Assembly (NCBI GenBank): GCA_020629635.1
Contig: JAHDCX010000011.1
Coordinates: forward strand, 62,001-126,000
DNA: 64,000 nt
Reading direction: 5' to 3'
Source of the DNA: Acidimicrobiales bacterium
GTDB taxonomy: Bacteria; Actinomycetota; Acidimicrobiia; Acidimicrobiales; SHLQ01
A program made the position numbers and the translations under genes. Of this stretch, positions 7,736 to 45,277 are shown piece after piece; within the stretch, counting starts at the first letter, position 1, and every line of letters begins with the position of its first letter. Below the pieces are notes generated by a model, which was given only the letters and a program-made list of their open reading frames with translations, had not been told where the DNA came from and ran no database searches.

Positions 7736-8374
7736 ATGGGCTCCGAGATCGACGACTACTTCGAGACGATCGACTCGTGGCGAGATGAGGCTGCGGCACT
7801 TCGCTCCGTTCTCCAAGCGACACCGCTCGTCGAGGACTGGAAGTGGAACCAACCCTGCTACACGCACGAGGGCAAGAACGTCGCCATGATTGCGCCCTTT
7901 GCGAAGTACTGCTCGTTGTCGTTCTTCGCCGGGGTACTCCTCGCCGACCCCGATGGGCTGCTCATCACGCCGGGCAAGGACTCGCAGAGCGCTCGCCAGT
8001 TGCGCTTCACCTCGGTCGATGCGATCGAGGCGCGCAAAGAGGCAATCGTCGCGTTCGTCGCCGAGGCGATCCGCCATGTCGATGAGGGGACCAAGGTCGA
8101 CTTCTCGGCCAAAGACGAGCTCGAGTTGCCCGTCGAGCTGATCGACCGGTTCGCTGATGTCGACGGGCTCGAAGCCGCCTTCCAGGCCCTGACGCCGGGC
8201 CGTCAGCGAGGCTTCGTGCTGCACATCTCCGGTGCGAAGCAGTCGACGACCCGGGCCAAGCGCGTCGAATCACACCTCGATCGCATCCTCGCCGGCAAGG
8301 GCATCCACGACTGCATCTGTGGCAAGTCGGCCCGACTGCCCCGATGCGACGGCTCCCACAGCCAGACGAGCTAG
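7736..8374 (+). CDS. DUF1801 / YdeI-OmdA protein with C-terminal CDGSH iron-sulfur motif
   Basis: A 212-residue protein with three parts: a DUF1801 (YdhG-like) domain at about 1-115, a YdeI/OmdA helical segment at about 130-190, and a short tail matching the CDGSH 2Fe-2S consensus exactly. The tail is C193-I-C195-G-K-S-A-R-L-P-R-C204-D-G-S-H208, i.e. C-x-C-x2-S-x3-P-x-C-D-G-S-H. Three Cys and one His would bind the cluster. The biochemical role of YdeI-type proteins is poorly defined. ATG 7736 is preceded by TAGCTT at 7 nt, a leaderless pattern. The stop overlaps the convergent giant surface-protein gene by 4 nt. Confidence 0.82.
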   Translation: MGSEIDDYFETIDSWRDEAAALRSVLQATPLVEDWKWNQPCYTHEGKNVAMIAPFAKYCSLSFFAGVLLADPDGLLITPGKDSQSARQLRFTSVDAIEARKEAIVAFVAEAIRHVDEGTKVDFSAKDELELPVELIDRFADVDGLEAAFQALTPGRQRGFVLHISGAKQSTTRAKRVESHLDRILAGKGIHDCICGKSARLPRCDGSHSQTS

Positions 8375-11300
8375 GCCGTCGGCTCGACCTCATCCTCCCG
8401 ACGACGCTGGCCGATCAGCACGAACAGGCCGCCGATGCCCATCAGGACTGCGGCCAGTCCGGCCAGACGGGACGACTCTCGACCGGTGAACGCGATCGCC
8501 GGGGGCGGGTTCGAGGGTGCGGGAGCGACGAGCGTGAGTTCGTCCACGTTGTTGGGGAGCATGGGATCGGTGCCGTCGTGGGTGACGGTGGGACGCCACG
8601 TCGGACCACCGGTCGTGGACACCTCGACATCGAAACGAGCTTCCTCGCCTCGAACGATCTCACCGAGAACACAGACGAGGTCGGTTCCGACGATCTCGCA
8701 CTCGGCCGGATGCGCGTCGATCGTGACGCCCTCGGGGATCGGGATCGTGATGATTGGAGCGACCGGAGACGGGCCTCCGACATGGCCGACCGTCACGGTG
8801 ATGGTGTCCCGATCACCCTCCACCTCGATCGCGAGATCGGCTTCGGGCTCGACGATCGTGATCGAACCGTCGGAGACGTCGTTGGCGGCAACCACGTCGT
8901 CGCCGATCGAGGTCCAGACCGACGTCGACACCGGCAGCACGGTTCCTTGGGCCAGCCCCGGGTCGGTCGTGAGCTCGATCGCGTACTCGGCGGTCTCTCC
9001 GACGCCGAGGTAGCCAATGGCGTCGAGCACGTCGACGGCGAGCGAGCCGCTCGTGAAGGTCAGGGCACCGCCGTTGGACGTTAGGGTGAGACCGGTCGGC
9101 AACGTGAGTTCTTGGACCACCGCGGCCGCATCGAACTGGCCCGGATTGGACACGACGATCGTGCCGGTCGTCGATCCTCCAGCGGGCAGCGTGTTCTGGT
9201 CGATCGTGAGCTCGACGGCGATGTCGAGGCCTCCGAGCTCCGCAGTGGCCGACGCCCGCGCGGAGACGTTGGCGGCGAACGGTGGCGTGGCGGTGACGGT
9301 GGCGTCGTTGATGATCGCCGCGCTGTCGACCTGGGAACGACAGGTCGTGGCGATGGATTCGCCGGGGACGAGGCTCGCATGAACGACATCGCACGCGGGC
9401 TCGATCGCATCGACGATCGTGATCGCGGTCAGCGGGACAGAACCGGAGTTCGTCACCGTGAGGCGCCACTCGACTTCGTCGTCGAAGTCGACCGCGAAGA
9501 CGTCGGACCACATCGAATCGTCGTTGCGGTCGCACGTGTCGAGCTCTGCGGCGGTACAGATCTCTTTGACGAGGAGGACGTCGGCGAGCTCGGCGACGAC
9601 GGCCGCTTCGGCTTCGGCGGTCACGACGGTTAGGTCGGGGTCGGTACCTGAGGCGGTGGCGACGTTGGTGGTGTCACCGGTGATCTGCGAGGTCGAGCAG
9701 GTCCACGCTTCCGTGACGCCAACGGCGAGTGAGCCGGTCCAGTCACAGGTGGGCTCGACCGGGTCCGTCACGGTGACCGGATCCAGTGGTCGATTGCCGG
9801 CGTTGGTGACGATCAGTCGCCATGCGGCAGGGCCGTCCTGGGGGCGAGCGGCGGACGCGCCCCAGTGCGCGTCGTCGGCGATGTCGCAATCGGCGATGTC
9901 GTCGAGCAGGCAGCTCTCCTTCTGGAGGAGAATGCCGGGCGCGGCATCGGCCAGCGTGACGGTGGCCGACGCCGATTCCGAGAGTGCGTCAGAGAATGGC
10001 GGCGTCGCTGCGACGAGCGCCTCGTTGACGACGGTGGCTTGCACACCTGACGACGTGCAGGTCCAGACAGATCGTTCGTCGGGCGCCAGGTCGCCGACCA
10101 GGAGATCGCAGATTGGGGTGAGCCCGTCGGTGACCGCAACCCCGGACAGCGCGGCGGCGCCGTCGTTGTGCACCTCGATGCGCCAGAAGGCGTCATCGTT
10201 CCACTGGACGACATGGCTACTGGACCAGTCCCCTGCGTCAGCGACGTCGCAGTCTGCAGAGTCATCCTCGACGCAGATCTGCTTCGAGATGGTGATGGAC
10301 GGCAGCAGCACGATGGCCGCCGCATCGTCGGTGGCGGTGACCTCGGTGGTGTCCGGGTCGGTGGCGGTGACCGAGGCAACGTTCGTCAGATCGGCGGTGA
10401 GTGCTGGTGTTTGGCAGGCCTGCACGTGTCGCTCGCCGATGGCGAGGGTGCCGGTCCAGGCGCAGCTCGATTCGATTGGGTCGGTCACGGTCACGTCGCT
10501 GAGCGGCCGGTTGCCGGTGTTGTCGACGGTGATCCGCCACGTCACCGGTCCGTCGAGGGCGACGGCGTGGGACTCTGCCCAATGTGCGTCGTTCGAGATG
10601 TCGCAGGTGGCGGCGTCAGCCTGTGTGCAGACGTGCTTGGCGAGCCCGATCGCGGGCGCCGCTGCTTCGAGGGTGACGTCGGCGGAGTCGCCGTCGGTCA
10701 CTGCGGCGCCGAACGGGGGCGAAGCCGAGACCTGAGCGGTGTTGGTGGCGCTCGCCTGAATACCGGCCGTCTGGCAGGTGGCCGAATCGGTGGCGGTGAC
10801 GGCGAGCGCTGCAACCACACGGTCGCAGGATGGCTCGGCCACGTCGGAGATCGTGACGCTGGTGAGTGCGGTCTGTCCGGAGTTGGTCACGGTGATCCGC
10901 CAGACCGCCGTGTCGTCCCAGCCAACGGTGTGGTCCTCGGCCCAGAGCCCATCGTCCGCGACATCGCAGTCGCCCGGGTCGGCAGCGGTACAGATCTGCT
11001 TGTCGATCTGGACGTCCGGAACCAACGCGGTCGCCGAGGCGTCGTCGGTGTCGGTCACTTCGGTCGAGTCCGGGTCCAGCGCCGACACGGCGACCGAGTT
11101 CGTCACGTCGGCGGTCAGCGGGTCGGTGGTGCAGGTGATGACCTGTTCTCCGCCGATGGGAATCGGTCCGGTCCAGTCACAGCTCGGTTCGGCCATATCG
11201 GTCGCCGTCGTGGTCAGCGGTCGATTGCCGGTGTTGGTGATGACGATGCGCCACCGGACGGGGCCGTCGAGGGGGATGAACTCGGCGTTCGCCCAGTCCG

Positions 11301-14300
11301 CGTCGTCGGCGGCGTCGCAGTCGGCGACGTCGGCCTCGGTGCAGATCTCCTTCTCGACGCTCACCCCTGGTGCGGCCGTATTGAGCACCACAGCCGCGGT
11401 GTCCGAGTCCGTGACGGCCGCGCTCGCCGGCGGAGTGCCAGACACGGAGGCGGTGTTGGTCGCGGACGCCGTGACATTCGTCGAGTCGCACACGTAGGCA
11501 GACGTCTCGGTCGGGTCGAGCGAGACGATGGTCGTGTCGCACGACGGAGCGACGGCGTCGGTGATGGCAACGCCGGTCAGGGTGGTTTCGCCGGTGTTCT
11601 CGACGGTGATTCGCCAGCGGGCCGTGTCGCCCCAGCCAACCGTCGTCGTCTCCGCCCAATCGGCGTCGTCCGCTACGTCGCAATTCGCCACCGGAGTGAC
11701 GGTGCAGATTTCCTTCGAGACGCTGATGTCCGGGACAAGGACGGCGGCGCTCGCCGAGTCGGAGTGGGCGACGACCGCGTTGTCCGGGTCGGTGGAGGTG
11801 ACGTTGATCGTGTTGGCGAGTGCGGCGGTGAGCGGGGTGGTGTCGCAGGTGTACGAGGCAGTGCCGCCGATCGGGAGGCCGGCGGCGATCGTGCTGTCGC
11901 ACGCGGGCTCGGCGGGGTCGGTGATCGTGACGTTGCTCAGCGGTCGGTTGCCGAGATTCTCGAGCTGGATACGCCAGCGCACGGTGCTGCCGGTCGGGAC
12001 GCTGTGGCTCTCGCCCCAGGCGTCGTCGTCGGTGGGGTCGCAAGCTGCGAGGGTGTCTTCGACGCAGACCTGCTTCGAGATCTGGATCGCGTTGGAGGCG
12101 GGGACGAGCGTGGTTGTCGCGTCGTCGGTGTCGGTGACGGCCGGACCGAAGGGTGGCGTTCCGGTCACGGCGGCCGTGTTGTCCAGTTGCGATTGCACGT
12201 TCGTGGTCGTACACGTGACCGTGACCGTGTCGCCGACGGGCAGGGCACCGATGGTCGAGTCGCAGCCCGGCTCGACAGCGTCGCTGAGCGACACGCCAGT
12301 CAGCGGGACGTCACCGTCGTTGGTGACCCGGATCCGCCAGGCCGTCGAGGCATCCCATGGCACGGCCACCGTCTCATCCCACAGGGCATCGACGGCACCG
12401 TCGCAGGTCGCAATGTCGGTCTGCGTACACACCTGCTTGGCAACCGCGATGGACGGCACGAGCACGGTCACCGACGCTGACGCGCTGTCGGTCACGATCG
12501 TGCCGTCGATGACCGACCGGCCTTCGACGGCAGCCGTGTTGGTCGTGTCGGCCGAGACCGGGTCGAGCGTGCAGACATTGCTGACCGTGGTTCCCCGATT
12601 CACACTGCCGATTGCCTGGTCGCATGCCGGCGCGTTGGCGTCGCTGACCGAAACGGCCACCAGGTCGTGGTTGCCGGTGTTCGAGACCCGGATTCGCCAG
12701 TGCGCGGGCGCTCCCTGTGGGACGGCGACGGTCGAGGTCCAGTCGGCGTCATCGTTGACGTCGCAGTCGGCGAGCGTCGTCGACGTGCAGATCTCCTTGA
12801 AGACGCGGACCTCCGGTGTCGACGATGGCAGGGCCACCTCGGCGGTGTCGGTGTCGCTCGCAGTCGCTCCGAGCGGACCGTCACCCGACGCCGAGATCGA
12901 GTTGGTGAAGCCGACCGTTGCGGCACCGAGCGCCGTATCGCACGTCCATGTCCGGGTTTCGCCGGCAGCAAGGGTCGTCGCTGCGAGGTCGCAGTTGGCC
13001 TCGAGCGCGTCGGTCGCGGTCACATCCACGAGTGACGTGTCGCCCGTGTTCGTGAGGGTCACTCGCCATCGCACCGTGTCGCCGAAGTCGGCAAGGAGGA
13101 ACTCGTCCCAATCGCCGTCATCGGCAACGTCACAGTCGGCGAGCACGGTCGTCGTGCAGATCTGCTTCTCGATCACGATCGCGGGTGGCGGGACGATGCC
13201 GAGGTCGACGGTGAGGTTGGAGCGGGTGTCGCCGGTGTTGGGGTCGATGCCCGCCACGTCGTCGCTGATCGGCTCGAGTCCGGCGGCTCCCGCGACCGGT
13301 TCGAGCGTGACGAGCGGCGTCTCGATCCGACCGCCGACGAGACTCGCGTGGTGGTCGGCCGACTCGTTGCGGTCGGTGTCTGCGTCCGGCTCTGCGTTGG
13401 GGGCGACCACCCAGCCCGCCAAGGTGCCGGTGAGCTCACTCGGAGGGATGACGACCCGGTAGGTCCCAGAGCCGAGCCCATCGAAAAGGAATCGGCCGGA
13501 CGCACTGGTGGTCGTGGTGTCGATCACGGCGCCGCCTGCGTCGTGCAGTTCGACGTTCACTCCCCCGACACCGGGTTCGCCGACGTCGTGAACGCCGTCG
13601 GCGTCGAGATCGGCAAAGAGGAAGTCGCCGACGGAGTATTCGGGGACGACCACAGTCGGCGTGTTCGATCGAAGCAGCAGCGCCTCGATCGAGGGCGTGA
13701 AGGCGCCGAACCGGTTGGAATAGGTGTCGCCCGGTTCGTTGCCGTCGGCCTGAACCGTGAACACGATCTCACCGTTGCTTCCAGCCTGACCGACGGGCTT
13801 CCAGTCGTCGTTCATGCTGAAGCGCCACGCGGTGACGTCGGCCCACGCTGTTGGACAATCTGGCTGACCGAACTCGGCCTCGGTGCACCACAGGGTCGGC
13901 GTTGCGCCCACGCCGTTGTTGGAGTCGGCACGTGGGTCGTGGTCGACGTCGAAGGAGTCTCGCGACGTGTACCGAAGCGTGCCCGGAACATCGCTCACCG
14001 GAGCGCCCGTGAGCGTGAGGGTGCCGGCGTAGTCCGAGCCGGGGTCGCGCTGCGACCGTCCACCCAAGCCGATCCCGTCGCCGGTGAACGGCAGCACGTC
14101 GATGACGTCGAGGGGCGCGAGCTGGAATGGCGATCCGTTGAGGTACGAGACGGTCCAGACCTGGTCGGAGTCGACCGTGTCGTAGCCCGAGTCGACCTCC
14201 TTGAGCACGCCGAGCTTTCCGGCGGTTTGGATCTCGAGTTCGAGCGAATCGGTGCGGAGGACGGCCGGCGTCGCATCGTTGGCGGCCGAAACAACCGAGC

Positions 14301-16695
14301 TCACTTCGATCTGTTCGCCTTCGGTCGAGAAGGGCGACACGAGTACGCAGAACTCTTGGGGGGCGATCGTGGCATCGACGGGGTGATTGCCGTGGAACCA
14401 GGTAAGTCGGGTCTCCCCGGGGGTGGGCGTATCGAACTCGACGAGGTCGGGCGCATCGACCGTGCAGCTGGCGTCGTAGACGAGTCGATCAGGCAGCGTG
14501 ACCACACTTCGCACGTCCTGCGCGTCCTGGACGCCGCCGGTCTCGGCGTACCAGAGCAGGGACGGTTCGGTCGTAAGTCGAACCTTGGTTCCCGCAAGAA
14601 CGGCGCCGTTGACGACATTGAACGACGGTTCGATGTCGGTCCGCACGGCGACCTGGGAGAGGATCACGCGGTCGCCGCGGCTGCCGCTGTCGGTGTTTGC
14701 GTTGTAGCCCGAGCCGGTCGTGAAGTTGTCGGATTGCATGCGGACGTTGCTCTGGAAGAGCACCCCCGCAGGGATCTCGGCGCCGTCGTTGGGTCCACCG
14801 TTGAAGAACTGGCGGGCGGAGATGTACGGCTCGGAGTCGATGCGTCCGCCGGCACCGAACTGGATGGCGTCGGGGTCGATCGGGCGGATCCGATACTTGG
14901 TGATCTGGTCGAGCGGGATGCCGTTGACCGGATCGTGCAATTCGGTTTGGGTGGTCCACCCCCACGTCGGGTCGGCGTCGGCGTCGAGGCAGCTGGCGTT
15001 TCGCAGCGGGGACAGGTCGGCGGACTGGTACAGGCCGGTGGTGGCGTTGCGGCCGCCACTCAGGTGGTCGATGCCCCAGCCACCGGGCGTACCGCCGTTC
15101 GAGCCGCCGGCGAATTCGAGCACCCAGTCCGCCTTGGTCCCCATGTTCGTGTAGAGGACGCGCCACTCGACGAGCTTGTTGGGGTCTGCCCACGCATTCG
15201 GGTTCTCCTCGAATCGAACGAGTGCGTTGTCGATTGACCGGCACACGATCGGGTTCTGCCAAGGGAGCACGCCGACGTTGGTCATGTGGTGCCACATGGA
15301 GAATCGGTCGTTGGGGTGGACCGTGCCGTTGCCCTGGTGGTGGCCGGTCGTGCTCTGGATCCAGTCGTTTGCCGACGCGTCGTTCTGCACGGCCTCGTTG
15401 GCGTAGATCTGTGTCGAGTCGGCGACACGGATCGTGAGTGTGCGTTCGCGGCAGTCGTTGGCCGGATCGTTGCCAACGTTGGCCTGGCCACTTTGCGAGA
15501 GCGGGGCGAAGTTGTTCGCACACAGCCGGATCCGCAGCGAGCCGGCGTTGTCTCCGACCACTCCGTCTGCGGCATCGACGGCAGACACCGGGATCCAGGT
15601 GTTGACGCGCCCGGTGATCACCATGTTGTCGCTGAGCGCGTTGCCGGTGAATGACTCCGTCGGGAAGCGGGTGCCGCGCGTGTCGGCGCCGGTCACGGTC
15701 ACGTTGATCGTGGACTCGGCTCCGCCGGGCTGCGCACAGGTGACGGTGCCCCCGTCGACGAGGCTGCGTTCCTGCACGTACGTCCCGTTGTCGTAGGGGT
15801 ACGGCAGGGCGCCGGTCCCGGTCCACGCCTGACAGTTGTTGTCCCAGACCCAGCCTGTGGCCTGGCCGGGGCCGGGCGTCACGGAGTCGAGGTCGACGTC
15901 GAAGGTGATCGGGTCGGCCAGCGCCTCCGAGCCAACGCCGGGCGGAATGTTGATGTGGAAGAACCAGTAGTTCCGGAAACCGGGTTCACCCGCTCGGTAG
16001 GTGATGTTCTCCCATTGGTAGGTGAGCCATTCGAGGTCGAAGTTCGGCAGGGCCGACACGGTCACGTCGGTGACGGCGTTGTTGTCGTAGACGCCGGGCG
16101 TCGATCCCTCGATGCCGTTCTCGTCGTAGCCACGAACGACCTGTTCGGACTCGACGGTCGAGCCGTTCGCGGACGAGCCGTCGACCTTGGCACGTACCGA
16201 GAACGTGGCGGACTGGTTCTCGAGCAACGCGCCGATGTTGCAGACGAGGAGCTGGCCGCCGGCAACATCGGTGACCGACGACTGCGGCGCGTACGGCAGA
16301 CCGGTGGAGGGGTTGGTTCCGGTGCCACAGATGGCGGGCATGATGTCGAAGTACGGCGTGGCACCGTCGCTCGACGAGATCGTCTGCTCGAGCACGACGT
16401 TCTGCGGGGCTGTGGCTCCGCCGAGCCCGGAGAGGTCGATGGTCCACGGGTAGGTGACCGTGTCTTCGGTCCGGACGATGTTGTTGGACGGGCCGCTGTC
16501 GTGTCCGGGCGTGTCGTCGGCGTCGAAGGGTGCCGTGCCGTCGTCGATGCCGGTGGCGATCGAGACGCCGAGCGTTCCGCCCGCCGCTGTGGCGGACGAA
16601 ACGAACCCCGGAACGACCGCCAACGTGGCGGCGAGGACGGCAAACGCACACAACACGGCACCGAACCGTCGTGCAAACAACCGGAACACTGTCAT
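8371..16695 (-). CDS. giant secreted surface protein with DUF11-like repeats and LAxTG-like anchor
   Basis: About 2,774 residues. The N-terminus (MTVFRLFARRFG, then a hydrophobic stretch ending in SSATA-AG near residue 37) is a signal peptide. Residues about 40-1010 are long beta-rich adhesin-type segments. About 1018-1085 resembles an SdrD B-type domain (VGDFLFADLDADGVHD). Residues about 1172-2485 are 11 tandem DUF11-like repeats. Two CARDB/DUF11-like domains follow. The end is PPPAIAFTG, a transmembrane helix and a charged RRRED tail, which is a sortase-type sorting signal with IAFTG in place of LAxTG. It is probably displayed on the cell wall as an adhesin or stalk; no catalytic domain was seen. 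ATG 16695 follows GGTGGTGA; a GTG at 16707 is possible. No sortase gene is adjacent. Confidence 0.9.
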   Translation of the reverse strand: MTVFRLFARRFGAVLCAFAVLAATLAVVPGFVSSATAAGGTLGVSIATGIDDGTAPFDADDTPGHDSGPSNNIVRTEDTVTYPWTIDLSGLGGATAPQNVVLEQTISSSDGATPYFDIMPAICGTGTNPSTGLPYAPQSSVTDVAGGQLLVCNIGALLENQSATFSVRAKVDGSSANGSTVESEQVVRGYDENGIEGSTPGVYDNNAVTDVTVSALPNFDLEWLTYQWENITYRAGEPGFRNYWFFHINIPPGVGSEALADPITFDVDLDSVTPGPGQATGWVWDNNCQAWTGTGALPYPYDNGTYVQERSLVDGGTVTCAQPGGAESTINVTVTGADTRGTRFPTESFTGNALSDNMVITGRVNTWIPVSAVDAADGVVGDNAGSLRIRLCANNFAPLSQSGQANVGNDPANDCRERTLTIRVADSTQIYANEAVQNDASANDWIQSTTGHHQGNGTVHPNDRFSMWHHMTNVGVLPWQNPIVCRSIDNALVRFEENPNAWADPNKLVEWRVLYTNMGTKADWVLEFAGGSNGGTPGGWGIDHLSGGRNATTGLYQSADLSPLRNASCLDADADPTWGWTTQTELHDPVNGIPLDQITKYRIRPIDPDAIQFGAGGRIDSEPYISARQFFNGGPNDGAEIPAGVLFQSNVRMQSDNFTTGSGYNANTDSGSRGDRVILSQVAVRTDIEPSFNVVNGAVLAGTKVRLTTEPSLLWYAETGGVQDAQDVRSVVTLPDRLVYDASCTVDAPDLVEFDTPTPGETRLTWFHGNHPVDATIAPQEFCVLVSPFSTEGEQIEVSSVVSAANDATPAVLRTDSLELEIQTAGKLGVLKEVDSGYDTVDSDQVWTVSYLNGSPFQLAPLDVIDVLPFTGDGIGLGGRSQRDPGSDYAGTLTLTGAPVSDVPGTLRYTSRDSFDVDHDPRADSNNGVGATPTLWCTEAEFGQPDCPTAWADVTAWRFSMNDDWKPVGQAGSNGEIVFTVQADGNEPGDTYSNRFGAFTPSIEALLLRSNTPTVVVPEYSVGDFLFADLDADGVHDVGEPGVGGVNVELHDAGGAVIDTTTTSASGRFLFDGLGSGTYRVVIPPSELTGTLAGWVVAPNAEPDADTDRNESADHHASLVGGRIETPLVTLEPVAGAAGLEPISDDVAGIDPNTGDTRSNLTVDLGIVPPPAIVIEKQICTTTVLADCDVADDGDWDEFLLADFGDTVRWRVTLTNTGDTSLVDVTATDALEANCDLAATTLAAGETRTWTCDTALGAATVGFTNSISASGDGPLGATASDTDTAEVALPSSTPEVRVFKEICTSTTLADCDVNDDADWTSTVAVPQGAPAHWRIRVSNTGNHDLVAVSVSDANAPACDQAIGSVNRGTTVSNVCTLDPVSADTTNTAAVEGRSVIDGTIVTDSASASVTVLVPSIAVAKQVCTQTDIATCDGAVDALWDETVAVPWDASTAWRIRVTNDGDVPLTGVSLSDAVEPGCDSTIGALPVGDTVTVTCTTTNVQSQLDNTAAVTGTPPFGPAVTDTDDATTTLVPASNAIQISKQVCVEDTLAACDPTDDDAWGESHSVPTGSTVRWRIQLENLGNRPLSNVTITDPAEPACDSTIAAGLPIGGTASYTCDTTPLTAALANTINVTSTDPDNAVVAHSDSASAAVLVPDISVSKEICTVTPVANCDVADDADWAETTTVGWGDTARWRITVENTGETTLTGVAITDAVAPSCDTTIVSLDPTETSAYVCDSTNVTASATNTASVSGTPPASAAVTDSDTAAVVLNTAAPGVSVEKEICTEADVADCDAADDADWANAEFIPLDGPVRWRIVITNTGNRPLTTTATDMAEPSCDWTGPIPIGGEQVITCTTDPLTADVTNSVAVSALDPDSTEVTDTDDASATALVPDVQIDKQICTAADPGDCDVADDGLWAEDHTVGWDDTAVWRITVTNSGQTALTSVTISDVAEPSCDRVVAALAVTATDSATCQTAGIQASATNTAQVSASPPFGAAVTDGDSADVTLEAAAPAIGLAKHVCTQADAATCDISNDAHWAESHAVALDGPVTWRITVDNTGNRPLSDVTVTDPIESSCAWTGTLAIGERHVQACQTPALTADLTNVASVTATDPDTTEVTATDDAAAIVLLPSITISKQICVEDDSADCDVADAGDWSSSHVVQWNDDAFWRIEVHNDGAAALSGVAVTDGLTPICDLLVGDLAPDERSVWTCTSSGVQATVVNEALVAATPPFSDALSESASATVTLADAAPGILLQKESCLLDDIADCDIADDAHWGASAARPQDGPAAWRLIVTNAGNRPLDPVTVTDPVEPTCDWTGSLAVGVTEAWTCSTSQITGDTTNVATASGTDPDLTVVTAEAEAAVVAELADVLLVKEICTAAELDTCDRNDDSMWSDVFAVDFDDEVEWRLTVTNSGSVPLTAITIVDAIEPACDVVHASLVPGESIATTCRSQVDSAAIINDATVTATPPFAANVSARASATAELGGLDIAVELTIDQNTLPAGGSTTGTIVVSNPGQFDAAAVVQELTLPTGLTLTSNGGALTFTSGSLAVDVLDAIGYLGVGETAEYAIELTTDPGLAQGTVLPVSTSVWTSIGDDVVAANDVSDGSITIVEPEADLAIEVEGDRDTITVTVGHVGGPSPVAPIITIPIPEGVTIDAHPAECEIVGTDLVCVLGEIVRGEEARFDVEVSTTGGPTWRPTVTHDGTDPMLPNNVDELTLVAPAPSNPPPAIAFTGRESSRLAGLAAVLMGIGGLFVLIGQRRREDEVEPTA
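9240..13180 (-). repeat. array of 11 coding repeats of about 360 bp in the surface protein
   Basis: Each repeat encodes about 119 residues and starts with K-Q/E-x-C-T, then A-x-C-D-x-x-x-D-x-x-W, W-R-I-x-V-x-N-x-G and a final V-T-D-x-D. Repeat starts (right to left) are near 13168, 12800, 12440, 12080, 11715, 11352, 11002, 10637, 10285, 9920 and 9567. Odd repeats carry T-P-P-F/A-x-x-A-V-T-D and often a WDD-type core; even repeats carry N-R-P-L and D-P-D. The higher-order unit is therefore an A-B pair of about 720 bp. Confidence 0.85.
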
Positions 16696-16837
16696 CGCGA
16701 TCACCACCCGTCCGTGGGTCGATGCGCTTCGGGAAATGCGCGTCGAACATCAGACAATCGGCATGGGCATCACGAGTTTGAGCCGACCGGACCAGGCTGG
16801 CTGGGCCTCGCCTGGCGAGCGCGAGCATCATCGAGCC

Positions 16838-34991: not shown

Positions 34992-36221
34992 CTACTCGAT
35001 GCGCATGCCGGAGATGGTGCGGCTGATGACGAGCTGCTGGATCTGCTCGGTGCCTTCGAAGATGTCGTGGATCTTGGCGTCACGATGCCAGCGCTCCACC
35101 GGGTACTCACGGACGTAGCCGTAGCCGCCGAGGATCTGGATCGCACGCTCGGTCACCCAGGTGGCGGTGCGGCCGGCCTTGAGCTTGGCCATCGAACCTT
35201 CGGACTGGGTGAACTCGCCGTTCTTGGCGAGCCATGCGGCACGGCGCACGAGCAGGCGGGACGCCTCGATCTCGGTGGCCATGTCAGCGAGCATGAAGGC
35301 GATCGACTGGTTCTGGATGATCGGCCGACCGAACTGCACGCGCTCCTTGGCGTACTCGAGCGAGTACTCATAGGCGGCACGGGCGATACCGATCGCCTGG
35401 GCGCCGACGCCGGGGCGGGTCGCCTCGAACGTCTTCATCGCTGCGTTGCCGGCACGGCCCGAGGGGGTGCCCTCGTGGAGACGGGCGAACTTCTCGTCCA
35501 TCTTGTCCTTGCCGCCGAGCAGGAACGAACCGGGGATCTTCACGTCTTCGAGGATCACCTCGGAGGTGTGGCTGGCCCGGATGCCGTGCTTCTTGAACTT
35601 CTGGCCTTGGCGCAGCGTTCCGTCGAGCTTGGCTTCGACCGGCACGATGAAGCTGGCGTGGCCCTTCGAGCCGAGCGCCGGGTCGACGACGGCGACCACG
35701 ACGTGCACGTCGGCGATGCCGCCGTTGGTGATCCAGGTCTTGGTGCCGTTGAGGGTCCACTCGTCCTTGGCCTCGTCGTAGGTGGCCTTGGTGCGCATGG
35801 CGGAAACGTCGGACCCGGCGTCGGGCTCGGACGAGCAGAAGGCGCCGAGCTTCACGTCGTCGGCGGTGCCGTACATCTGGGGCACCCACTCCATGACCTG
35901 CTCGGGCGTACCGACCGCAGCAACGCCGGCGGCGGCGAGGGCGGTGCCCATCAGCGACATGGCGATACCGGCGTCGCCCCAGTACAGCTCTTCGAGGGCG
36001 ACCATCATCGACTGACCGGTCGGATCGTTGAGCATCATCTCGGAGAGAAACTCCCAGCCGTACAGGCCGATGCCGGCGGCCTCTTCGATGATCGGCCACG
36101 GGGTCTCTTCGCGCTCGTCCCACTCTTCGGCGTTGGGGCGCATGGTGTCCACAGCAAAGCCGTGGATCCAGTCGCGGAGCTGTTCTTGCTCCTCGGAGAG
36201 ATGCATGGAGAACTCAGCCAT
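34992..36221 (-). CDS. acyl-CoA dehydrogenase
   Basis: A 409-residue protein with the three-domain ACAD fold. FCSSEPDAGSDVSAMRTKA and WITNGG are the FAD and substrate middle-domain motifs, and AKIHDIFEGTEQIQQLVISR near the end carries the catalytic Glu (E-G-T). It oxidises an acyl-CoA to the 2-enoyl-CoA with electron-transfer flavoprotein as acceptor. Start ATG 36221 has AAGGAG 6 nt upstream. Two palindromes about 60-100 nt upstream suggest control by a TetR-type fatty-acid regulator. Confidence 0.92.
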   Translation of the reverse strand: MAEFSMHLSEEQEQLRDWIHGFAVDTMRPNAEEWDEREETPWPIIEEAAGIGLYGWEFLSEMMLNDPTGQSMMVALEELYWGDAGIAMSLMGTALAAAGVAAVGTPEQVMEWVPQMYGTADDVKLGAFCSSEPDAGSDVSAMRTKATYDEAKDEWTLNGTKTWITNGGIADVHVVVAVVDPALGSKGHASFIVPVEAKLDGTLRQGQKFKKHGIRASHTSEVILEDVKIPGSFLLGGKDKMDEKFARLHEGTPSGRAGNAAMKTFEATRPGVGAQAIGIARAAYEYSLEYAKERVQFGRPIIQNQSIAFMLADMATEIEASRLLVRRAAWLAKNGEFTQSEGSMAKLKAGRTATWVTERAIQILGGYGYVREYPVERWHRDAKIHDIFEGTEQIQQLVISRTISGMRIE

Positions 36222-36281
36222 CGGGGGCTCCTTGATGTCGTGCATGCCCGGGGGTCGTGTGGGGCAGAGAAGTGGTTCGAA

Positions 36282-36321
36282 GTTACCCGCGGGTAACAAC
36301 TAGAGATTACTCATGGGTAAC
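36282..36321. promoter_or_regulatory. twin palindromic operators upstream of the acyl-CoA dehydrogenase
   Basis: GTTACCCGCGGGTAAC (36282-36297) is a perfect 16-bp palindrome. ATTACTCATGGGTAAC (36306-36321) is a near copy with centre 24 bp away. Shared consensus is TTAC-Y-C-N2-G-G-GTAA. The layout suits two dimers of a TetR-family repressor; no regulator gene is adjacent. Confidence 0.7.
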
Positions 36322-36376: not shown

Positions 36377-37336
36377 TCAGTGACCGGGCGACGTGCGGGC
36401 CTTGAACTCGGTCACCGTGAAGGGCCGAAGCGTCGTCGCCGACCGGGCCCGAATCGTCGCCGACCGAGGGAATCCGAGCAGCGGACCGAGCTCGCCCACG
36501 TAGTTGGGCGCCTCGAGCGTGGCCAACAACTCCTCGCCGCCATCGGCGAGCTCGCGGACGACGTCCACCGCTCCCGCCTCGATCGAAAAGACGTAGTCGC
36601 TGGCGTCGCCCTGACGGAACAACACCTCGCCCGCAGCGAGCTCGACGGGCTCGGACGCCGCCGACACTTCGGGCACCGCCCCCGTCATCTCCACGACCCG
36701 GTCGAGCGCCGGGAGGAGTCGCGTGTCGTGCGTCGAGATCAGAATCGTGCGTCCACCGTCGCGCAGTTCACGCAACAGCCCGATGACGGCCTCGGCCGAG
36801 ATGTGATCGAGGTTCGCCGTTGGCTCGTCGGCCAGCAGGAGCGTCGGATCGGCCACGAGACCCCGCGCCACGGCGACGCGCTGTTGCTGACCGCCCGACA
36901 GTTGATTGGGCCGATGCCCAGTCCGCTCCCCCATCCCGACCTGCTCGAGCAGCGACTCTGCACGGGCGATCGCCTCGGCCCGTGGCGTGCCCGCGAGAAG
37001 CAGCGGCGCGGCCACGTTCTCTGCTGCGTTGAGCGACGGCAGCAGATTGAAGCCCTGGAACACGATGCCGATGTCGTTGCGCCGGTACTGCTCGAGCGCC
37101 CGCCCCGACAAAGAACACACGTCGATCCCGTCCATCGTGACCGACCCCGACGTCGCGTCGACCATCCCCGAAAGGACCGACAGCAGCGTCGTCTTGCCCG
37201 AACCCGACGGGCCGACCAAGCCGACCAGCTCGCCACGGTTGGCTCGCATCGAGAACCGGTCGAGCGACTTCACCGAATACCCGTCGGTGATGTACTCGAC
37301 CGTGACCTCGTCGACCGAAAGCAGTGGCTCGCTCAT
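36377..37336 (-). CDS. ABC transporter ATPase (LolD/MacB type) with C-terminal cyclic-nucleotide-binding domain
   Basis: A 319-residue protein. Residues 1-225 form a LolD/MacB-type ATPase: Walker A GPSGSGKTT (42-50), Q-loop VFQGFNLLPSLNA, signature LSGGQQQRVAVARG, Walker B LLLADEPT and H-loop STHD. Residues about 235-319 form a cNMP-binding domain: LAAGEVLFRQGDASDYVFSIEAG and the phosphate-binding cassette GELGPLLGFPRSATIRA, where the canonical Glu and Arg are present. Transport may thus respond to cAMP or cGMP. The ATG overlaps the permease gene end (ATGA), and the two should form one complex. Confidence 0.88.
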   Translation of the reverse strand: MSEPLLSVDEVTVEYITDGYSVKSLDRFSMRANRGELVGLVGPSGSGKTTLLSVLSGMVDATSGSVTMDGIDVCSLSGRALEQYRRNDIGIVFQGFNLLPSLNAAENVAAPLLLAGTPRAEAIARAESLLEQVGMGERTGHRPNQLSGGQQQRVAVARGLVADPTLLLADEPTANLDHISAEAVIGLLRELRDGGRTILISTHDTRLLPALDRVVEMTGAVPEVSAASEPVELAAGEVLFRQGDASDYVFSIEAGAVDVVRELADGGEELLATLEAPNYVGELGPLLGFPRSATIRARSATTLRPFTVTEFKARTSPGH

Positions 37337-38346
37337 CCGAACGCCTCCGCTGGCGACGTCGCCCGCACCTTGCGCACGCCCACCATCGCGGCCACCGCGG
37401 CGATCACCAGCGCTCCCAGCGGGATCTGCCACCACGCCGCTGATGGCACCGAGATCACGAGCGGAAACAGCGGCCGAACCACGAACTGCAGGAGCGCTCC
37501 AAGCACGCACGCGATCGCCGTCACCGCCATCGCCTCGACGAACAACGACCCGGCCAAGAAGCCGTCTCGCCCGCCGACCGCCTTGAGTACGGCGAAGTCC
37601 CTCGTCCGCGACGTCGCCGTCGAATACACGGTCGCCCCGATCACCACAGCGGTCACGAACCACAACAACACCCGCACCAGATCGATCGAATCGACCGCCG
37701 GATCGAGCGGCTTGCGCGTATCCGCTGCGACGTCGGCAGCCGTGAGCACCTTCGCCGCAGGCCCACCTTCGGTTCCGGCCGGCACGACCGCCCCGGTCAC
37801 GATCTCCTGACCCGACAAGACGACGAGCTGCGCATACGCGAGGTCGACGAATCCGAGCGGCAACCCCGCCAACACCGTCGCCTCCTCGGTCACGCCGGTC
37901 ACCGTCGCCCGGCGACCTCCCAACACGATCGAATCCCCCACGGCGTACCCGGCCGTCCGGTCGAGCACGATCTGCCCGGATCCGACCGCAGCCTCGCCCT
38001 CGACGATCACCGGGGCATCAGGGTGCGACTCCACGCCGACGAGCATGACCTGCTCGCCCTCCACGACGGTGCGTCCGATCAAGAACGGCCGGGCTTCCTC
38101 GACCGCGTCGACGCTCGCTTGCGGCAACGCCTGCGGGGTCGTGAACGGGCCACTCGACGACGGATTGACGAGGAACGCCGCATCGGGACCGCCGAGTTGC
38201 TCGGTCGCCCGAACCGGCTCGCGCTCGAATTGCCCCACCAGACCGCTCAGCAGAAACAGCAACCCGAGCACCACCGACATGAGCAGCACGACAGCCAGAA
38301 TCCGCCAACGACGGTGCTGAAGATCCCTCGCCACCAACGTCAACAC
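37333..38346 (-). CDS. FtsX-like ABC permease
   Basis: A 337-residue membrane protein in the MacB/FtsX layout. One N-terminal helix (RILAVVLLMSVVLGLLFLLSG) precedes an extracytoplasmic domain of about 170 residues, and three C-terminal helices follow from about residue 230 (VRVLLWFVTAVVIGATVY). Such permeases mediate lipoprotein release, peptide export or signal transfer across the membrane, not classic import. Starts at GTG 38346. Partner of the cNMP-ATPase gene, which it overlaps by 4 nt. Confidence 0.85.
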   Translation of the reverse strand: MLTLVARDLQHRRWRILAVVLLMSVVLGLLFLLSGLVGQFEREPVRATEQLGGPDAAFLVNPSSSGPFTTPQALPQASVDAVEEARPFLIGRTVVEGEQVMLVGVESHPDAPVIVEGEAAVGSGQIVLDRTAGYAVGDSIVLGGRRATVTGVTEEATVLAGLPLGFVDLAYAQLVVLSGQEIVTGAVVPAGTEGGPAAKVLTAADVAADTRKPLDPAVDSIDLVRVLLWFVTAVVIGATVYSTATSRTRDFAVLKAVGGRDGFLAGSLFVEAMAVTAIACVLGALLQFVVRPLFPLVISVPSAAWWQIPLGALVIAAVAAMVGVRKVRATSPAEAFG

Positions 38347-44225: not shown

Positions 44226-44648
44226 ATGATCACCTTCCGTTCTCGCAAGTCGAACCAGATTCACCCCACCCTCGACGAGACGCTCTCCGGCGTGTTCTCC
44301 GAACACGAGCTCGCCGCGATGAGCCGCCTCGGCACCATTCTCACCGTCGACGCCGACACCGTCGTCGGCCGCGAAGGCGAACCCGGCCGCGAAGTCTTCG
44401 TGATCCTCGATGGCGAAGCGCTCGTCCTGCGATCCGGCGACGCCGTTGCCGAGGTCGGCGCCGGCACCGTCATCGGCGAGATGTCCGTCCTCGACGGCAC
44501 TCCCCGCAACGCCAGCCTCATCGCCTCGACCGAACTCCAGGTTGCCGTGTTCTCCAGTCGCGAGTTCGCCGACCTGCTCGAGCAGTGCCCCCGCCTCGAC
44601 GGCGAGGTCCGACGGGTCGCCGACGAGCGCAAAACCGCCGCCGCCTGA
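44226..44648 (+). CDS. stand-alone cyclic-nucleotide-binding-domain protein (copy 1)
   Basis: A 140-residue protein that is little more than one cNMP-binding domain. LTVDADTVVGREGEPGREVFVILDGEALV leads to the phosphate cassette IGEMSVLDGTPRNASLIAS, with the canonical Glu and Arg. The N-terminal MITFRSRKSNQIHPTLDETLSGVFSEHELAAMSRLG is shared with copy 2. No output domain is attached, so it probably works through a partner. Ribosome binding site AGGA is about 11 nt before the ATG. Confidence 0.82.
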   Translation: MITFRSRKSNQIHPTLDETLSGVFSEHELAAMSRLGTILTVDADTVVGREGEPGREVFVILDGEALVLRSGDAVAEVGAGTVIGEMSVLDGTPRNASLIASTELQVAVFSSREFADLLEQCPRLDGEVRRVADERKTAAA

Positions 44649-44842: not shown

Positions 44843-45277
44843 ATGATTGGGCAGACGATCATCACGTTCCGATCCAAGAAGGCCAACCAGGTCGATCCGG
44901 ATCTCGACGAGTCCCTCTCCGGAGTCTTCTCCGAGCACGAACTGGCCGCCATGACACGACTCGGCGCCATCATGGCCGTGGAAGCTGGTTGGATCGGTGG
45001 CCGAGAAGGCGAGCCGGGTCATGAAGTGTTCGTGATCCTCGAGGGCGACGCAGCGGTGAGCCGGAACGGCGAGGTCATCGCCGACATCGGTCCCGGAGCA
45101 GTCGTCGGAGAAATGTCGATACTCGACAACGCTCCTCGCAATGCCACGCTCGAGGCCACGACCGCCATGCGAGTGGCGGTGTTCAGCGCCCGGGAGTTCT
45201 CCGACCTGTTGGCCCAATGCCCTCGCCTCGACGCCGAGATCCGTCGAGTCGCCGACGAACGACGCACCGAGAGCTGA
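44843..45277 (+). CDS. stand-alone cyclic-nucleotide-binding-domain protein (copy 2)
   Basis: A 144-residue paralogue of the preceding gene; most positions are identical or similar across the full length (SLSGVFSEHELAAMTRLGAI, GREGEPGHEVFVILEGDAAV, VGEMSILDNAPRNATLEAT). The cassette Glu and Arg are kept. The Lys/Gln-rich N-terminus is also conserved, so it may be functional rather than a linker. GAAAGG lies about 9 nt before the ATG. A tandem duplication is the likely origin. Confidence 0.82.
   Translation: MIGQTIITFRSKKANQVDPDLDESLSGVFSEHELAAMTRLGAIMAVEAGWIGGREGEPGHEVFVILEGDAAVSRNGEVIADIGPGAVVGEMSILDNAPRNATLEATTAMRVAVFSAREFSDLLAQCPRLDAEIRRVADERRTES

Follow-up and report, generated by a model that had tools for sequence, protein, structure and literature searches.

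MacB, LolCDE and FtsEX are described as Type VII ABC machines, in which closure of the ATPase drives work on the outer membrane face, often the extraction of a molecule from the membrane, and YbbAP-TesA of E. coli is a Type VII ABC system that works with a lipid hydrolase (PMC12646458, in excerpt). In Mycobacterium tuberculosis, the pairs Rv2563/Rv2564 and Rv0072/Rv0073 each consist of an ATPase and a four-helix permease that resembles MacB (PMC7761784, in excerpt), and Rv2564 and its neighbour Rv2565 are listed with the cyclic-nucleotide-binding domain PF00027 (PMC4886424, in excerpt). Both pairs are labelled as a glutamine importer and as 'Experimentally not characterized' in the available text of PMC7034087; that of PMC7761784 files the pair as an amino-acid importer, yet points out that the helices are arranged as in MacB and questions that function. 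With regard to these ABC pairs, no mention of 'cyclic nucleotide' was found in the excerpts of PMC7761784, nor of 'cyclic' in those of PMC7034087. A search of a limited library for cyclic-nucleotide control of this ABC pair returned nothing beyond the PF00027 listing in PMC4886424. The architecture is therefore already known as an annotation, and the pair described below is a non-mycobacterial member. Rv2565 is presumably a patatin, and we assume that Rv0073 also carries a cyclic-nucleotide domain; the cyclic-nucleotide (cNMP) proteins of M. tuberculosis were probably first described by McCue in 2000.

The window, a stretch of 64,000 nucleotides from an Acidimicrobiales genome, contains such a pair on its minus strand (Table 1). 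Both genes were found by ORF reading and Pfam where the initial annotation had placed them (36377-38346). The longest mechanical ORF of the ATPase starts at 37663; the ATG at 37336 was taken as the real start because it overlaps the permease stop codon (ATGA) and aligns with the starts of relatives. A chance ORF or frame artefact was rejected, since operon and domains are conserved across relatives, the fusion and its pocket recurring in 131 distinct domain sequences and the permease adjoining the ATPase in essentially every relative. The window pair shares with Rv2563/Rv2564 an ATPase-cNMP fusion that immediately follows an FtsX-type permease gene, within one clade; the M. tuberculosis pair enters this comparison by its published description, the sequences compared being those of named mycobacterial relatives with the same two-gene plan. 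Beyond the anatomy of the pair, the analysis adds from sequence, models and statistics a single fused clade, co-conservation with the permease, pocket statistics including a subclade that lost Glu, a missing lid helix and a linkage to cNMP-patatin genes. In the literature searched, a limited library, none of the fused clade, permease co-conservation, pocket statistics, missing lid or patatin linkage was found.

Table 1 Features of the permease/ATPase pair, in window positions.
Feature	Position	Strand	Evidence
FtsX/MacB-type permease (P0002), 337 aa, GTG start; TM1, extracytoplasmic domain, TM2-4	37333..38346	-	PF02687 match, AF2 model, HrtBA fold
ABC ATPase with C-terminal cyclic-nucleotide-binding domain (P0001), 319 aa	36377..37336	-	Sequence, Pfam; start by ATGA overlap and relatives
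ATPase nucleotide-binding domain, residues 1-218	36683..37336	-	Residues 25-174 matched by Pfam ABC_tran at 119.7 bits; closest solved structure is the ABC domain of E. coli MacB
Walker A GPSGSGKT, residues 42-49	37190..37213	-	Sequence
ABC signature LSGGQQQ, residues 146-152	36881..36901	-	Sequence
Walker B LLLADEP, residues 166-172	36821..36841	-	Sequence
Cyclic-nucleotide-binding domain, residues 231-307 (Pfam)	36416..36646	-	PF00027, 60.4 bits (E 1.7e-16, cut-off 27.5); beta-roll, P-helix and hinge helix in model
Phosphate-binding cassette GELGPLLGFPRSAT, residues 281-294, with Glu282 and Arg291	36455..36496	-	Sequence, relatives; Bd1971-like consensus FGEMALIDNQNRSA (PMC6717892, in excerpt)

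The ATPase is a MacB/LolD-type ABC ATPase. The three short motifs of Table 1, whose names Walker A, ABC signature and Walker B are our assignment, are intact, as is STHD. The ATPase model (pLDDT 91.8) consists of an ABC fold followed by a beta-roll domain. Its identity as MacB, LolD, FtsE or DevA proper was rejected, with scores under every NCBIfam cut-off (LolD 194.5 against 307.75, FtsE 193.7 against 264.85, DevA 187.5 against 295.8, MacB 187.2 against 966). MetN was among the fold matches of the model, but with a whole-chain rmsd above 12 Å, and so no fold similarity between the extra domains of the two proteins is claimed. The permease matched FtsX (PF02687) above the cut-off at 43.2 bits and MacB_PCD just under it (25.2 bits against 27). 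Its AF2 model (pLDDT 92.8) places helices at residues 13-52, 203-246, 261-293 and 302-329, that is, one long helix before an extracytoplasmic domain and three helices after it, and as modelled the protein has the four-helix (1+3) FtsX-type plan of Type VII ABC permeases.

The best whole-length PDB match of the permease was the heme exporter HrtBA (7w7a; TM 0.70, E 5e-16), followed by MacB and LolCDE. HrtBA is a Type VII ABC system of similar permease length, and its ATPase was among the matches of the ATPase model; however, identity is 22%, and the matched HrtBA ATPase chains of about 220 residues carry no cyclic-nucleotide domain. MacB, LolCDE and FtsEX share the ATPase family and the permease helix plan with the window pair, from which they differ by the unreached NCBIfam cut-offs and by the extra sensor domain of the window ATPase; unlike in MacB, the ATPase and permease of the window are separate genes. 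YbbAP-TesA differs in plan, with 10 helices in YbbP and a periplasmic location of TesA, whereas four helices are predicted for the window permease.

The initial annotation had described an intact C-terminal cNMP cassette, with Glu and Arg kept, on an FtsX/MacB-class ATPase, and this was borne out by the Pfam match, by Glu282 and Arg291 and by the conservation reported below. Used as a profile, the C-terminal third matched the solved regulatory domains of PKA and PKG, CRP and Bd1971. In the model, a beta-roll, a P-helix (283-287) and a hinge helix (308-315) were assigned, the helix names being our own. A lid (C) helix was looked for in this model and was absent, the protein stopping four residues past the hinge helix. 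The lid helix is a usual, not a universal, part of cyclic-nucleotide-binding domains, and family membership here stands on the profile and the cassette. In classical domains this helix caps the nucleotide; without it, the pocket of the window ATPase may depend on another subunit for its cap, or may be weak. Bd1971, a phosphodiesterase activated by both cAMP and cGMP, likewise carries a cyclic-nucleotide domain on an enzyme, and its cassette FGEMALIDNQNRSA resembles VGELGPLLGFPRSA of the window ATPase; in Bd1971, however, the nucleotide is capped by a swapped C-helix, which the window ATPase is missing (PMC6717892, in excerpt).

Among named genomes, the nearest relatives of the window ATPase are Acidimicrobiales MAGs. 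Six full-length relatives (47-70% identity) were aligned first, and all six had the domain and a permease homologue just upstream. At E<=1e-75, a profile search of the phylum sample (396 genomes) identified the fusion in 15 genomes, that of the class sample (247) in 17 and that of the mycobacterial genus sample (148) in 76; 30 of these 76 gave short loci and 14 gave wider loci, chosen mainly from lower-scoring groups. The earlier remark that such direct cyclic-nucleotide control would be unusual calls for qualification, given the presence of the fusion in about half of the sampled mycobacterial genomes and the listing of Rv2564 with PF00027 (PMC4886424, in excerpt). A scan of named genomes with the C-terminal third returned 135 relatives, of which the best 80 were mostly from Mycobacterium, Mycolicibacterium and Acidimicrobiia. 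Overall, fused ATPases occur in Acidimicrobiia, Mycobacteriaceae and a few other actinobacteria.

Conservation of the fusion together with the permease, proposed at the outset as a check, was confirmed in both locus sets, which share at least 12 loci. The permease lay directly upstream at 35 of 36 loci of the profile-search set (window included), the exception, L114, being cut by a contig end before the sensor domain. The same held for 78 of the best 80 named-genome loci, 77 by script and one (L167, with the permease present and the ATPase frameshifted) by inspection; the two exceptions, L127 and L150, start inside the gene at contig ends. Two further sets were drawn from these 80 loci, A4 with the window ATPase plus 49 rows and A5 with the window permease plus 43 rows. 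Tandem copies of the whole permease/ATPase-cNMP pair were seen at two mycobacterial loci (L239 and L160). In M. angelicum and M. szulgai (L179:9410-11335 and L173:9404-11332), the open frame does not stop after ATPase-cNMP but continues into a domain resembling class I fructose-bisphosphate aldolase (PF00274), giving a triple fusion.

An IQ-TREE phylogeny of 99 ATPase domains grouped the 70 fused rows, together with the unfused L026, in a single clade with an SH-aLRT of 97, and the fusion label required two changes on the tree compared with 25 in shuffles. This was a quick tree, for which 13 duplicate loci were skipped and 19 of the 80 named-genome loci were picked by hand, with long-branch warnings among the unfused rows and for one fused row (L099); the single fused clade holds for the sampled paralogues. 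The unfused L026 (L026/L055) ATPase ends within or just after the linker and, since it stops there while sitting inside the fused clade, looks like a later loss of the domain.

For the pocket, 161 fused ORFs were merged into 132 distinct domains, 131 of them with the full motif; L098 and L114 end before the pocket. Gly and Arg were present in 131 of 131 and Glu in 122, and the residues after the pocket Arg were Ser (118), then Ala (128) and Thr (124). The nine domains without Glu comprise L099 (Ala) and eight loci, L226-L233 (six Gln, one Arg, one Pro), which form one mycobacterial subclade on one starred branch of the tree. A degenerate pocket in homologues, named beforehand as the finding that would speak against nucleotide sensing, was thus limited to these nine and did not extend to the other 122; a recently degenerated pocket was rejected for those 122 and for the window ATPase. 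The L226-L233 subclade retains the fused domain, the permease and the pocket Arg despite the replacement of Glu, and its domain may sense another ligand or none.

The window pair is flanked by acyl-CoA dehydrogenase genes, and the called genes around the six first relatives differ from one another, which indicates a cassette without one fixed context. A cNMP-domain patatin phospholipase gene nevertheless lay within 4 kb of the pair in 10 of 30 non-mycobacterial genomes. With 91 patatin matches in these genomes, 0.21 linked genomes would be expected (P ~6e-15); the census covered 30 of the 36 fusion genomes, with the phylum sample's six mycobacterial genomes set aside. All ten linked patatins have GxSxG. 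Glu is kept in every one of their cNMP pockets that was read, and so is Arg, apart from one of the two L096 pockets. The ten loci are scattered across the fused clade, suggesting an old linkage that was lost several times, including in the genus of the window and in the mycobacteria that were read. The window itself yielded no patatin homologue, and the mycobacterial loci read showed no cNMP-fused patatin next to the pair. The genome's own cNMP-patatin (L014) lies on another contig, and a patatin as part of the window operon was therefore rejected. The linked patatin also differs from TesA of the YbbAP-TesA system, as it is a different enzyme and carries cNMP domains.

Many cyclases and cyclic-nucleotide domains are present in mycobacteria and their relatives, and little of what they act on beyond transcription factors is understood. 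In the genome of the window itself there are 13 cNMP-domain matches, and four genes account for its five class III cyclase matches. Inspection by eye showed that Asp, Lys, Asp, Asn and Arg are retained in two of these cyclases (L001 and L005); we take these residues to be the catalytic set, and both enzymes read as putatively complete. In the class sample, a cyclase was present in all 17 fusion genomes and in 145 of 230 others (P 6e-4), a weak association because fusion genomes tend to be larger and genome size confounds it.

On balance, the pair is probably an actinobacterial Type VII ABC machine whose ATPase would be tuned directly by a cyclic nucleotide, most likely cAMP, and which would act on a hydrophobic substrate embedded in the membrane. 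C-terminal regulatory domains gate ABC ATPase closure in MalK and MetN, and c-di-AMP controls the ABC transporter OpuC through a CBS domain. From these precedents and the mode of action of Type VII systems, we infer the following for ligand, direction of control, stoichiometry and substrate. The pair would assemble as a machine like MacB, LolCDE or HrtBA, probably with two ATPases and two permeases. Uptake of cAMP, or less likely cGMP, through the Glu/Arg cassette of the lid-less domain could shift the ATPase between resting and working states, as this domain at the end of the ATPase would make closure of the two ATPase domains easier or harder. The permease would turn closure into movement on the outer membrane face, most likely pulling a membrane-resident hydrophobe from the bilayer. 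The substrate is probably such a hydrophobe; the cNMP-patatin linkage suggests a lipid, and the HrtBA-like permease fold would also allow heme. Where the patatin gene adjoins, the same messenger may tune both lipid extraction by the ABC pair and hydrolysis. A more tentative extension, to which we give rather low credence, is that cAMP on the lid-less sensor gates outer-face work while also controlling the cNMP-patatin, the ancestral unit being an actinobacterial system, found in mycobacteria too, in which cAMP switches the extraction and hydrolysis of lipid and which goes under the name 'glutamine importer'. Counting against the proposed cyclic-nucleotide-tuned machine are the loss of Glu in nine of 131 distinct domains, the absent lid helix, and the lack of an adjoining cNMP-patatin at the window locus and at the mycobacterial loci. 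Judged from its sequence, it would represent a conserved non-transcriptional cyclic-nucleotide output wired straight into a membrane ATPase, and the linked cNMP-patatin phospholipase offers a lead on function, toward membrane lipid.

The physiological signal could instead be cGMP, or cAMP and cGMP alike, which we regard as unlikely. Thr after the pocket Arg favours cGMP, and it occurred in only two of 131 distinct domains; the two cyclases inspected by eye have Lys in the region usually read as ATP-specific, an assignment that is ours. A class III cyclase match does not distinguish adenylyl from guanylyl enzymes, and Ser after the pocket Arg is also found in Bd1971 (RSA), which both nucleotides activate (PMC6717892, in excerpt). 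A comparably low probability attaches to the domain being a structural module for ATPase dimerisation or tethering, its ligand response gone in most members. The lid-less model is consistent with such a module, as is the mycobacterial subclade that keeps domain and permease without Glu, but an Arg and a Gly that never vary, together with Glu in 93% of the domains despite their deep divergence, would be difficult to account for if there were no ligand.

Two other readings are very improbable. The label of amino-acid (glutamine) importer carried by the mycobacterial homologues (PMC7034087 and PMC7761784, in excerpt) was rejected for the pair, since the GlnQ model NF007027 scored 152.2 bits against a cut-off of 379 and the permease is of the FtsX/MacB type rather than an importer type; the helix plan and doubts noted in PMC7761784 point the same way, and the results argue that the label is wrong for the mycobacterial homologues. 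A decaying or recently assembled pair, whose fused domain has no selected function, would fit the domain loss in L026/L055, but this is one loss among 71 clade members, with operon and pocket conserved.

Several minor features of the window were also recorded. Two tandem stand-alone cNMP-domain proteins of 140 and 144 aa (44226-44648 and 44843-45277, plus strand; 56.7 and 58.4 bits) lie about 6-9 kb from the pair, with pocket Glu and Arg intact (GEMSVLDGTPRNAS and GEMSILDNAPRNAT). A perfect palindrome, TTACCCGCGGGTAA, at 36283-36296, downstream of the ATPase and just upstream of the acyl-CoA dehydrogenase gene 34992-36245 (minus strand), occurs once in the window, with two further sites with one mismatch genome-wide, and looks like a candidate operator for a regulator. 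An ORF of 2778 codons at 8371-16707 (minus strand) would encode a giant predicted protein. Between 24000 and 33000, G+C is slightly lower (0.63-0.65) and the coding signal sparse, possibly marking an inserted region.
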